DNA of 64,000 bases from Polytrichum commune (lineage: Eukaryota; Streptophyta; Polytrichopsida; Polytrichales; Polytrichaceae): contig OX485806.1 in NCBI GenBank assembly GCA_950295325.1, positions 38,314,001 through 38,378,000 on the forward strand, given 5' to 3'. Below, piece by piece: positions 1 to 46,979 of this stretch (position 1 is its first letter; every line of letters begins with the position of its first letter). Below the pieces are notes generated by a model. It saw only the letters and a list, made by a program, of their open reading frames with translations. It was not told the origin of the DNA and did no database searches. The position numbers and the translations under genes were made by a program.

Positions 1-2223
1 CATTGTCACTCAAAATATCCGGATGGAGAAGTTCATCTAGTTGATCTTGATCCCTTATATCATCCAATATTATGAGAACCTTCTTACCAATCATAAATTG
101 CTTCAACATGTTTTGTGCATTCACCAAATTTGTTGGCAAGCTTTTAGGACCTTCTTCAAAGTCTTTTAACATATCACATATAATTCCAAGGGAATCACTT
201 TTATTCTTCAAGTCTTTGGCAAAACATGATGCATTGTATGCAAACTTCAATTCATCAAATACGGCATTTGCCAACGTAGTCTTCCCAATTCCACCCATGC
301 CAATGAGACCCAAAATTCTCACTTCCTTGAGGCGATCCTTGACTTTTCTAAGGTTTCGTTCAAGACCAACCACCTTGTTGTTCATTGGCTTTGTTGTTTC
401 CTTCACCTACGTAAACAATGCATGCAATTAGAACCTACTTTTGATTCGAATTACATCCTCAACGACCTACATTTTAATCCTAATAAACAGAAATGACAAG
501 CTATCCATATGAAAATAGTTTTTATTAGGCATTTGAACACCAAAACGGTTCGCACCTTTATAATAGGTTTCTCTTTGACCTCCTTTGCCTTCTCAATTCT
601 TGAGTTCCTTTGGAGCAAGGCTCCATCCTTTTCAAACTCGGGACATAGGGTTGCCGAGTATGTTCCTCTCAAAAACATTTTCTTCAAAGCTATCAATTTT
701 TCACAAATTTCAAAAAATGTTGGCCTTTGTAAAGGATCCTCCACCCAACATTCCTCGATCAACCTCGTAAGCTCTTCACAATTCATTGGCAATTTTGGCC
801 TTTCAAATTCCTTTATTTTTTCCAAAACATCTTTGCAGCTCACGTCATCGCTCCCAAATGGAGCAGTTTGTGACAAGATCTCTGAACATGTCATAGCAAA
901 GGACCATACATCAGCTTGAAATAAACTTGCATGAGATCCAAGATCGTTATCAACTATCTCCAGTGCCATATACTTAGGTGTACCAACACGATAGTAGCGT
1001 TGTTCCTCGGAAACTTTGCTTGGAACATCAATGTTGGAAGTACCATAATCAACCAACTTGACCAAGAATCCGCTAGAATTCAATTTTCCTCCTTTCATGG
1101 AATTAGGTCTCAAAAGCACATTGTCCGGCTTTAAATCAAGATGGGCAACATGCATGTCATGAAGATAACACATGCCACTTGCAATTTGAAGCATGATATC
1201 AATTGCAACAACATATGATAACGGTTTAGATTGCTTCTTCAACATGCCACTCAAGCTCATGTCCATGAACTCCATCACCAAATACAAATTTTCTTCGCCA
1301 CATTTTTTTAAAGGATCGTGAGGCCAAGAACATAACTCATCTAAGCACCCACTAACTCCACAATAAATGAATTTGATGAGATTCGGATGGCTCAAGCCTG
1401 CTAGAATACCGATCTCTTTACGACAATTTGGCACTTGCGAAATCTTTGTTGCACATTGAAAGCCGAACCATATAGATTCATAGACCGCACCACATGCTCC
1501 TGTCCCAATTTCTTCACGAAGCTTTGGTTTCAATGAATCAATGACATTTGGAACCTCCACACTATCGAGCTCTCCACCTTCTAGTTGCGAGTCTCGCAAT
1601 CTTCGCTGTAAATATTCTCTCCATTCATGGTTGCTATCATCCTTGAGAGTTTCTTGAAGAACCTTTTCATCGTGCTCAATATCTTTCAAGGTGGGCATGT
1701 CAACATCAACAATAAGCCTCATAGAATGCGACCTTGGATGGTTTTGTGAGTGCATCTCATATATCACATCCCAACAACACTTCAAATCGGACACAAGTTC
1801 TCGAAACGCCTCCTTGTTATTTATTTGGAATGCAATTGCTTGACACCGATTCCCGCATTCCACCGCATTCCCGCATTCACGCACCGCAACTCCCATTCTT
1901 TGTGTAATGCGACATAGCTCCTCAAGTGCAACACCAAACTCTTGCACCTCATTACTCAATGTGATAATCTCACCAACACATTCTACGACTTTGTTAAGTT
2001 TGGTGAGAAGATGTTTACATTGCTTCTTATTCAATACTTCATTTCCATTCGAAATCTCTTCAAGTCTACGTATTTCTCCCTTCTGCCATTGCAATAAACC
2101 TTCAATGTCATATTCATAAATGGATCTTCTTTGTCGATATGTCCAAAACATCATAAAGCAAGTGCCAATAAAATCCCAAAATCTTGATAGTTGCTCAAAA
2201 AACAATTGTAAAAGCTTCGCCAT
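1..2223 (-). CDS. PNL-type immune receptor (helical bundle - kinase - NB-ARC), 5' part
   Basis: Probably an intracellular immune receptor. Exon 1 (2223-556, 556 codons) joins exon 2 (406-1) across a phase-0 intron; the gene continues past position 1. The ATG at 2223 is the first in its frame after an in-frame TGA. Residues 1-27 are hydrophobic and aromatic-rich (LLQLFFEQ, FIGTCFMMFW). Residues about 60-160 are helical and resemble the HeLo/MLKL-like bundles that precede some plant kinases. Kinase about 235-515: glycine loop GTGACGAV (240-247), Lys260 in CATK, HLDLKPDN (361-368), DYG (392-394), ALE (420-422), DVWSF (438) and Arg500. The catalytic Lys, Asp363, Asn368 and Asp392 are present; HRD reads HLD (non-RD) and APE reads ALE. 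NB-ARC: P-loop GMGGIGKTT (592-600) and Walker B KKVLIILDDI (about 662-671). LRRs would follow outside the window. No lesion is visible. Kinase-NBS-LRR layouts are known from mosses; signalling by this protein is inference. Confidence 0.9.
407..555 (-). other. Intron between kinase and NB-ARC exons
   Basis: On the minus strand the donor is AAAG|GTGCG (555) and the acceptor TTTACGTAG|GTG (407). The 149-nt intron is phase 0. Without splicing, the kinase frame ends after an unrelated hydrophobic tail at 451. With splicing it continues as KPIIK-VKETTKP straight into the NB-ARC. The boundary falls exactly between two protein modules. Confidence 0.8.
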
Positions 2224-20162: not shown

Positions 20163-20254
20163 TATTAAAAGCAGCTCCCAAGAATGGTCGTGCAGAGCAG
20201 TATTCTGTGGTAAAAGTAACTCTAGGGCCGTATTACTAATTACTCCACTTTAAC

Positions 20255-20694
20255 GGCCGGGGATTCGTGGCACTCAAGTAAAGTCACCCGGTAACGAAAA
20301 TCGGATGAGTCCATCAAGAAGCTCGGATGGAGCTTACTGTAGTGAAACACCTCCGACTTGGCATGTAAGACCTATTTTCTCCCTCATAGCTATTTTGTAA
20401 ATATTGATTAGTTGGCAAGGGGCAATGATATGGCCTTGGATGCTCTAAGCCTATTTTCTGACCTCCCATGAGTTATTTCCAAGGCCATGATGTGGCTTTG
20501 AATTCCACATGGTTATTTTGATAAATATCGCAAGATATCAATGTGTGCAATATATAATTATGACGTGTTGTCATGAACATTGCTTTTGTTCATAATTCAT
20601 TTATTTTGCACGGGTGTGCTTGCTCAAACATTTGTAATATGTCAAAATAATATATATCACCTTATGATAAATCGGTGAACTAAAAAAACCAATT

Positions 20695-20735
<41 letters not shown>

Positions 20736-21676
20736 AAAATAACTAATATATACCATGTGACGAGGATAAATTATTACAATAATTTAGATAGGCTATAGTC
20801 ATAAACTTATGATTTTCTGAGTATACCCCATCCATAACGTTGTCCCACAAGTCTAATTCCAAATAATATATCATTTATTTATACCTTATATTATATTACC
20901 TCAAAAATAATATTTATATTTATATATTTTTGTTCTATGTTTTCTATTCTATCTTCATTGTTTTATTTTTGTCATCTTATGAACACTTGCACTAATCTAT
21001 CATTAGAATGACATATAATTTTAAATGGTAAGTCACAAAATTATAACCTCAATGTTAATGAGGATTTTGTAATGTTTTTGACCTCCAAGTTAATTACGTG
21101 CTTCATTGATGGTTTCACTTCCGGAATGAAATCCCAATCAATTGCTTATTTGCTAATTGGAAGTGCACATATATATATATTGGATTTTAGACCTTGAAGG
21201 TGAAGTGCATTCAATATGGGATTTGTAGTCACGCGGCCTTCAAGAATGCAAGGGCAATGTTTTTTTCGAAGTTGGGCAAGGCGGACAACAATTTTCGGTC
21301 GGGTTTAGAAAATTTCTAAGGGTTGCCCCAACCCGGATTTGATACCTCCGAAAGTTCGTGAGGGGTATTTAACATCCGCCCATGTTAAATTTAAAAAAAA
21401 ATAACCGCATTAGTAGTGATAGGTTGGCAACACATGATGCCCCCACTTGCTTCTATATGAGGCATTATTTATGTTTTTATGTCTATACCCCTTTATATTG
21501 ATGCCTTAAGTACTAGATTAGACTAGGATTTTTAAAACTACTAAAACTTGGTATTTTTGAAACCCTTGAGACAAGGAGCCGACGACGTATGGAAGTGTCT
21601 AAAGTGATTCATCTCATCCGCGAAGATGAATGAACTCTCACTAATGAGAATACATGAGTGCCATGAATCCCCGGCC
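20255..21676. mobile_element. Mutator-like element, about 1.4 kb
   Basis: The left end GGCCGGGGATTCGTGGCACT is matched in inverted orientation at 21656-21676 (GTGCCATGAATCCCCGGCC). The ends belong to the family of the 243-bp element at 23290. No transposase ORF; the interior is AT-rich. Flanks (TTTAAC, CAATAT) show no duplication, so the two ends may come from different insertions. Confidence 0.5.
20699..20730. repeat. (TA)16 microsatellite
   Basis: Uninterrupted TA dinucleotides within the Mutator-like element. Confidence 0.9.
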
Positions 21677-45902: not shown

Positions 45903-46534
45903 GTGATAAGTGCGCGGATATTTGATATTTGTTGATAGAAATAATTGGGATGTGTATTTTGCAAATGTATGCTCCCAAATGGACCATTGCATACTAGTTT
46001 AGAAAATTAGCCTTTGTAAGCTAACATACCGAGGCTTAGGGCCACTTTACTCTACAGCCAAGGACCATGGCCATGAAGTTGTGAGGGGGCCCTTGAAACT
46101 CATCCAAAGATAGTACCATTGAATTTTGAAATTAAATTTAGTGTGATCACGGGCCTTCAAGTGTAGTACAAAGACATTGTACTCAACCGGATTCTCATCC
46201 GAATCCTATCTCATTACCATCCTACTCATGTGGCCCTTTCTATGCAACAAGCTACAAGAAAGCAAGGGGTGTGAGAGTTTGAAATGTCATGGTCATCCAT
46301 TTCACCCTCCGTGGACCCTTAGGCCCTCAAGCTCTAGTGTCAAGTGAAGTGGGAAGGCCATCTTGGCAATTTTCACCAATGAGAAATTCTAGATTTCAAT
46401 GGTCACATGTCCTAAGCTCCAGTGTAAAGTGCCCCTAACTCAAGTTTTGATGTACTTAAAAATCTTGATGTCTTCTTACTTTATAATAATTGTTATTATT
46501 ACATTGATGTTTTCAAGGCTTTGTCTTGGTGGTG
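45903..46534. other. No gene recognised
   Basis: Later LACS exons would be expected here but were not found. No other motif. Confidence 0.45.
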
Positions 46535-46979
46535 GGCATCCCAACAACACCTCAAATCGGACACAAGTTCTCGAAAAACCTCCTTGTATTTTGTTGAAAT
46601 GCAATTGTTTAACACCGATATTGATTTTCACATTCACTCACCACAATTCCCAATTTTTGTGTAATGCAACATAGCTCCTCAAGTGCAACACCAAACTCTT
46701 GGACCTTGCTACTCAATGTGATCATCCTACCAACACATTCTACAACTTTGCTAAGCTCAGCGAGAAGATGTTTACATTGCTCTTATTCAATACTTCATTT
46801 CCATTCGAAATCTCTTCAAGTCTCCTTATTTCTTCCTTTTGGCAATGCAATGAACCTCCAATGTCATGTATGTAAATGGTTTTTCTTTGCCGAAATGTCC
46901 AAAACATCATAAAGCAGGTGCTAATAAAATCCCAAAACCTTGATAGTTGCTCAAAAAACAATTGTAAAAGCTTTGCCAT
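46535..46979 (-). pseudogene. PNL receptor relic, 5' end only
   Basis: From the ATG at 46979 it reads MAKLLQLFFEQLSRFWDFIS, close to the intact gene at 1-2223. A 1-bp loss near 46780 (TTGCTC versus TTGCTTC) then shifts the frame after NGNEVLNK. Homology continues in broken form to about 46535, matching 1760-1790 of the intact copy, and then stops. Kinase, NB-ARC and LRR are absent. Confidence 0.85.

Follow-up and report, generated by a model that had tools for sequence, protein, structure and literature searches.

A moss kinase-NLR gene of Polytrichum commune with an N-terminal exon homologous to MLKL-type proteins

The question raised by this locus is whether a single moss protein joins a helical N-terminus, a protein kinase and an NB-ARC domain, and what kind of module that N-terminus is. 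The window (the whole stretch of Polytrichum commune DNA that was analysed, 64,000 nucleotides) carries these parts at its start on the minus strand, and a preliminary description had read them as one polypeptide with a possibly HeLo-like N-terminus. The neighbouring 8 kb of the contig were added to the window to complete the gene. The following features were defined:

ATG at 2223, running off the window start, minus strand: kinase-NLR gene, called from the open reading frame and the neighbouring DNA
556..2223, minus strand: exon 1, an MLKL-like unit (leader, bundle, linker, kinase and tail), 556 codons with a phase-0 donor
2113..2223, minus strand: N-terminal leader (residues 1-37), amphipathic and hydrophobic; conserved across the HLD clade
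1744..2112, minus strand: residues 38-160, bundle, homologue of MLKL_N / DUF1221, with the motifs LNxxQC and QxNNxEAFREL
1519..1743, minus strand: residues 161-235, linker at the position of the MLKL brace, between bundle and kinase
679..1518, minus strand: residues 236-515, protein kinase with HLD and DYG; K260, E270, D363, N368 and D392 present
407..555, minus strand: intron 1 at the kinase / NB-ARC border, 149 bases, GT...AG, phase 0
1..406, minus strand: first part of the NB-ARC exon, with about 670 bases more beyond the window
278-301 and 59-82, minus strand: P-loop and KVLIILDD, respectively, both in the window

The enclosing minus-strand open reading frame spans 451-2316, and the ATG at 2223 lies inside it. 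The joined protein has 2787 residues and is encoded by three exons: the N-terminal bundle and kinase, the NB-ARC, and a very long LRR. Exon 3 begins about 935 bases beyond the window, contains 1872 codons and ends with TAA about 6550 bases beyond the window; its product is a 1872-residue LRR rich in 24-residue repeats. Intron 2, at the NB-ARC / LRR border, is 263 bases long, GT-AG and phase 0. In the protein the P-loop stands at residue 592, KVLIILDD at 665, GLPL at 758 and MHD at 878, the last two being encoded beyond the window. Pfam matched Pkinase at residues 236-508 (E=5.9e-38) and, for the in-window part only, NB-ARC (E=1.4e-14). The N-terminus, the HLD kinase and the spliced NB-ARC with P-loop and Walker B were all recovered as the preliminary description had listed them; the DYG, the ALE, the LRR exon and the membership in a described class were absent from it. 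Under a strict pattern the LRR exon of 1872 amino acids (L001:602-7066, just before the window) comprised 56 near-alike 24-residue units, and further LRR units were present after the exon-3 stop codon, in a separate 281-residue frame.

Kinase, NB-ARC and LRR follow one another in this order in one gene, and phase-0 introns lie at the kinase/NBS and NBS/LRR borders, as they do in the accessible text on the kinase-NBS-LRR (PNL) class of the moss Physcomitrella (Xue et al., 2012, PMC3352924). The gene belongs to this moss PNL / kinase-NLR class (Xue et al., 2012; Chia et al., 2024), so its architecture was already known.

The 408 Mb genome was searched with residues 1-249, which gave 154 matches, fragments included. 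Fifty paralogous loci (L002-L051) were picked by their N-terminus and not by a P-loop: L002-L031, among them the window copy L003, were cut from the best matches, and L032-L051 were 20 more distant, hand-chosen loci. A P-loop was found downstream in 28 of the 30 close loci (exceptions L013 and L015) and in 17 of the 20 distant loci (exceptions L039, L043 and L048), or 45/50 overall. The N-terminus, kinase and P-loop shared a single open frame in seven of the 20 distant loci (L040, L044-L047, L050 and L051). Two of these seven, L045 (2433 amino acids) and L044 (1583 amino acids), were scanned with Pfam and contained kinase, NB-ARC, Roq1-type winged helix and LRRs in order. Since in paralogues a single open frame covers N-terminus, kinase and P-loop, the chain is not the product of a splice guess, and the data support exons 1-3 encoding one chain rather than an artefact of the gene model. 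The single polypeptide that had been proposed therefore stands, on its phase-0 introns and on the seven uninterrupted paralogues. Some other paralogues had internal stops or short frames. An NB-ARC was also counted within 4 kb downstream in 1/30 and 39/49 N-terminal places and in 0/79 for the upstream control, but these counts derive from 79 listed N-terminal places and 45/126 NB-ARC places that were hand-chosen, and with that bias they carry no argument.

Among close paralogues the median dN/dS was 0.47 for the leader, 0.58 for the bundle, 0.43 for the linker and 0.51 for the kinase, from 304 to 353 non-independent pairs. This range (0.43-0.58) indicates moderate constraint only, alike across all parts.

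The window is located amid other PNL copies. Locus L002 (C4:38236947-38240693), 77 kb away, encodes a first 249 residues identical to those of the window copy, and ungapped 3747-base stretches of the two had 3229 equal positions, which suggests recent duplication or conversion. A decayed PNL N-terminus fragment was found at 46526-46979 of the window (minus strand), with pieces 61-72% identical in different frames, and more PNL fragments lay about 1.8-2.5 kb beyond the end of the window (C4:38379803-38380545). Outside this family, window positions 20165-20800 contained a dispersed repeat with 87-95% identical copies on contigs C1-C7 among the 40 scored of 1379 candidate places, and C5:1751760-1846160 (about 95 kb) held 14 chlorophyll a/b-binding matches with identical scores. 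One Lhcb protein of this genome matched 9vfj, 8htu and 7xqp best in the PDB, the last two being Physcomitrium entries; this and the many PNLs agree with a moss genome.

The nature of the N-terminus was addressed with profiles. Pfam gave no match over the first 235 residues of the window protein other than unrelated DUFs at 0.13 and 0.19. Profile A1 was built from an alignment of 21 PNL N-termini, in which invariant positions included L-N-x-x-Q-C and Q-x-x-N-x-E-x-F. Against 177,635 PDB sequences its best match was 6lba (‘protein kinase family protein’), residues 20-127, with a modest E-value of 0.0017; the next match was at 0.039. Among Pfam families, MLKL_N matched the most PNL N-termini (5/21, best E 3.2e-4), and RPW8 matched two of the 21 (best 2.9e-6).

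The MLKL_N model occurred at 37 places in the genome at E<=10, and six moss kinases taken from these places formed profile A2; all six match MLKL_N by construction, which is no evidence. A2 matched 6lba (2e-5) and 4btf, which is named MLKL (0.0024), in the PDB. A P-loop was absent from the further 3 kb downstream of five of the six A2 kinases (L063 was left out). Alignment of A1 with A2 in hhalign gave a probability of 98.6% and a score of 107.5 over 130 columns, compared with 20.4 for the best of 200 column shuffles and 18.7 for reversed A2.

The DUF1221 model found 15 places in the genome, of which only L070, a 569-residue DUF1221-kinase, exceeded the Pfam cut-off. In BLASTP, residues 77-520 of L070 (bundle and kinase) matched residues 32-484 of the PNL L050 with 29% identity (E=4e-44). 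The N-terminus of L070 alone matched 20 of the 21 A1 members (all but L018), and in a database of 27 sequences it matched the window N-terminus at E=2.3e-5. The L071 N-terminus matched 14/21 A1 members, the window's not among them. In hhalign, A1 against the L070 and L071 N-termini gave 97.9 with a score of 85.6 (best of 100 shuffles 22.9), and this match with DUF1221-kinases extended into the linker (161-235); A2 against the same N-termini reached only 47.9 with a score of 34.5. Of the 15 DUF1221 places, at least two (C4:5412060 and C3:8796763) lay inside PNL N-terminal matches, under the cut-off. At assignable PNL places the genome scans gave 16.8-20.9 bits for MLKL_N (cut-off 27 bits) and 17.4-19.5 bits for DUF1221 (cut-off 25 bits), and the window N-terminus had no hit by either model. 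The clustered DUF1221-type kinases L070-L073 were located at C1:75.40 Mb and C5:49.25-49.40 Mb; L070 has HRD with an altered DFG (HFS), and L072 and L073 have HLD with DFG.

Profile methods consequently place the bundle as a homologue of MLKL N-termini, and across bundle and kinase together exon 1 is, at the level of primary sequence, colinearly homologous to a whole DUF1221/MLKL-type protein. We infer that the bundle has a four-helix fold, and the linker at 161-235 is a putative MLKL brace. A single-sequence AlphaFold model of residues 1-240 contained helices only and, with a pLDDT of 41.7, was too poor to count as evidence of a fold. The HeLo-like reading of the N-terminus has in this way been raised to sequence homology with DUF1221/MLKL-type kinases.

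Other N-termini were considered as relatives of the PNL N-termini and were rejected. The loci L056 and L062, whose N-termini are presumably U-box-like, reached 41% and a score of 32.8 in hhalign, and L054 reached 12% and 26.1, all far below the 107.5 of the MLKL-type comparison.

The kinase of the window protein has its G-loop (GTGACG) from residue 240, followed by K260, E270, H361-L362-D363, N368 and D392-Y-G. The preliminary description had listed the catalytic residues and HLD for HRD; the kinase also carries DYG for DFG and ALE for APE. Searched alone against the PDB, the kinase matched 6ka4 first (1.5e-24), 9p9u second (2.3e-23) and 6lba third (1.2e-22); 9p9u is an EGFR entry with two kinase copies that scored 42.4 bits per domain, compared with 88.5 for 6ka4 and 82.8 for 6lba. 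We take 6lba and 6ka4 to be Arabidopsis MLKLs (AtMLKLs). Within the PDB comparison, this kinase, which directly follows the bundle, is nearest to MLKL kinases.

In total, 36 rows formed an HLD clade and 13 rows were of other PNL type. All 36 HLD-clade rows had HLD, with the Arg of HRD replaced and the catalytic Asp kept, and at the DxG motif Tyr was present in 34, Asp in 33 and Gly in 29 of them. The 13 other PNL-type rows had HRD (12) or HHD (1), and DFG in every case. Catalytic K, E and D were kept in all 36 + 13 rows. The HLD clade formed one group with 100/100 support in a tree of 55 rows (without L003, L024, L049, L052, L054, L056 and L062) that had no named outgroup and in which long branches were flagged. 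HLD with DYG is read as a derived, probably secondary state of one clade. The non-RD label holds for the window gene; as a feature of the whole receptor class it was rejected, with HRD in 12/13 and DFG in 13/13 of the other PNL-type rows. HLD was also seen in the DUF1221-type kinases L072 and L073. Loci L060, L043 and L048, with no P-loop in their stretches, were grouped with the RD-type PNL rows, and L061, which has a P-loop, joined L058 and L063, which have none in their stretches. RD-type rows needed three changes on the tree and MLKL-like rows two, and a single clean origin of PNLs from MLKL is not demonstrable from it.

In the HLD clade, residues 1-37 combine hydrophobic and aromatic character with a basic end. 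A transmembrane helix was considered for this leader and set aside: the Kyte-Doolittle value over 19 residues reached 1.6 in only 3 of 36 clade members, and the leader is therefore read as an amphipathic helix with no clear membrane span. The leader was not seen in the RD-type loci L041, L044 and L045. Locus L060 had its own hydrophobic start (Kyte-Doolittle 1.61).

On balance, and with slightly more confidence than doubt, the gene is interpreted as a moss-type kinase-NLR of the PNL class in which NB-ARC and a long LRR come after an N-terminal output module that would be a complete MLKL-type protein, made up of a HeLo/DUF1221-type bundle, a brace and a kinase. What the DNA documents is the anatomy: the order of parts in one gene, the colinear homology, the kept catalytic residues and the large paralogous family. 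The mechanism that this anatomy suggests would run in one chain. The LRR would sense a ligand or a modified host protein, and the NB-ARC would exchange nucleotide and oligomerise. Activation through NB-ARC and LRR would cluster the MLKL units; the kinase would then trans-phosphorylate or change shape, and the bundle would be released. The bundle, perhaps with the amphipathic leader, would insert in or permeabilise the membrane, and the cell would be killed. A necroptosis-like death would thus have its sensor, its activator kinase and its executor in one chain.

A wider proposal, put forward tentatively and with confidence somewhat short of even, is that the whole class of moss kinase-NLRs consists of necroptosis machines in a single chain. 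In these the oligomer would directly fire the attached MLKL, which would be both activator kinase and membrane executor, and the NB-ARC would carry a TIR-type (Roq1-like) winged helix. The MLKL module may have entered NLRs as a whole exon, after which one clade would have become non-RD (HLD/DYG) and gained a membrane-seeking leader.

Three other explanations were weighed. The most serious of them, although we regard it as rather unlikely, is that the kinase is the output: the exon-1 module would phosphorylate downstream proteins, and the bundle would be merely a regulatory or docking domain. The kept catalytic residues of all 36 + 13 PNL-type rows speak for this explanation, since animal MLKL and the AtMLKLs are called pseudokinases in the available text of PMC10951266, and one review takes the kinase NTD for an output that acts by phosphorylation (PMC10952240, accessible sections). 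The bundle, however, is about as constrained as the kinase (dN/dS 0.58 versus 0.51), and cell death is attributed to the related bundles of AtMLKL, RPW8/NRG1 and HET-S (PMC10951266, same portion). In the accessible portion of Chia et al. (2024, PMC11218826), the response to a Physcomitrella patens NLR kinase construct was modest and variable, and every kinase tested there, apart from a Tsn1 mutant, gave mild ion leakage. The Pkn constructs of that study reach up to the start of the NB-ARC, and so would take in a bundle should the P. patens protein have one. This response fits an executor, although its weakness counts against one, and it does not decide between an executor and kinase output.

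An integrated decoy, in which a pathogen-targeted host MLKL-like kinase was fused to an NLR as bait and the bundle-kinase senses without executing, appears improbable. Integrated domains of nonflowering NLRs do include kinases, seen as effector targets (PMC11218826, accessible text), but the unit stands at the N-terminus, the usual place of NLR output domains, it recurs in many loci, and within exon 1 no TIR or CC domain precedes it. Very improbable indeed is that the three exons are separate neighbouring genes or a decayed copy from which no such chain is made: stops or short frames in some paralogues and LRR repeats resuming in another frame past the stop codon would agree with it, yet the GT-AG phase-0 introns (149 and 263 bases), the open 2787-codon chain, the P-loop downstream in 45/50 paralogous loci and the single open frame in seven are against it.

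Under the favoured interpretation of exon 1 as an MLKL-type output module, the part that looks new is the recognition of the N-terminus as such a unit. In the literature searched, mostly open-access full text, no statement linking PNL N-termini to MLKL was found, though one may be in print elsewhere, and no work within this scope joined MLKL, Physcomitrella and kinase. In its accessible text a 2023 review (PMC10952240) leaves the role of the kinase-NLR N-terminal module open. NLRtracker (PMC8559963), which was applied in the 2024 survey, identifies MLKL with the DUF1221 model according to the available description; with PNL N-termini scoring under the cut-off, surveys may for this reason label them as kinases. 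Should this module prove to be an MLKL, there would be a concrete executor hypothesis for a major class of moss immune receptors, testable on 556 residues, and plant NLR signalling and necroptosis-type death would be physically one protein.

Known systems share different parts of this layout. CC/RPW8-type NLRs (ADR1, NRG1) and fungal HeLo NLRs likewise have a helical-bundle output domain on an NLR, and the RPW8 model matches a few PNL N-termini (2/21); they differ in that the winged helix of the two scanned PNL paralogues matches the Roq1 model. To our knowledge no kinase lies between bundle and NB-ARC in either of these groups. Wheat Tsn1 and other monocot kinase-NLRs have a kinase before the NB-ARC, and we know of no bundle before the Tsn1 kinase. 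In the accessible text of Chia et al. (2024, PMC11218826), kinase NTDs fall in structural cluster AF1, with Tsn1 as the representative, and independent acquisition in monocots is hinted at.

Animal MLKL (4btf) has the same layout of bundle and kinase-like domain, and is linked to the PNL N-termini via the A2 profile and not by A1 directly. Its activator kinase and sensor are separate proteins, and it has no NB-ARC or LRR. Plant MLKLs (6ka4, 6lba and the DUF1221-kinases) have a bundle and then a kinase, both homologous in sequence to those of the window protein. Pm13 (MLKL_NTD-kinase) also keeps its kinase residues; the available text of PMC10951266 describes MLKL_NTD as a bundle of four helices, for which HeLo and DUF1221 are other names, and superimposes that of Pm13 on the domains of animal MLKL, AtMLKL and NRG1. 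Unlike plant MLKLs, which end after the kinase, the window protein continues into NB-ARC and LRR, has an extra amphipathic leader, scores under the DUF1221 and MLKL_N cut-offs and is not a pseudokinase by its residues. The PNL or Pkn-NLR genes (PMC3352924; PMC11218826) resemble the window gene in that each unites kinase, NB-ARC and LRR and has a phase-0 intron at either border. In the accessible text of those papers only the kinase is named at the N-terminus, whereas in the present analysis an MLKL/DUF1221-type bundle and a linker were recognised in the 235 residues preceding the kinase, and the window gene is further set apart by its LRR of 1872 amino acids.
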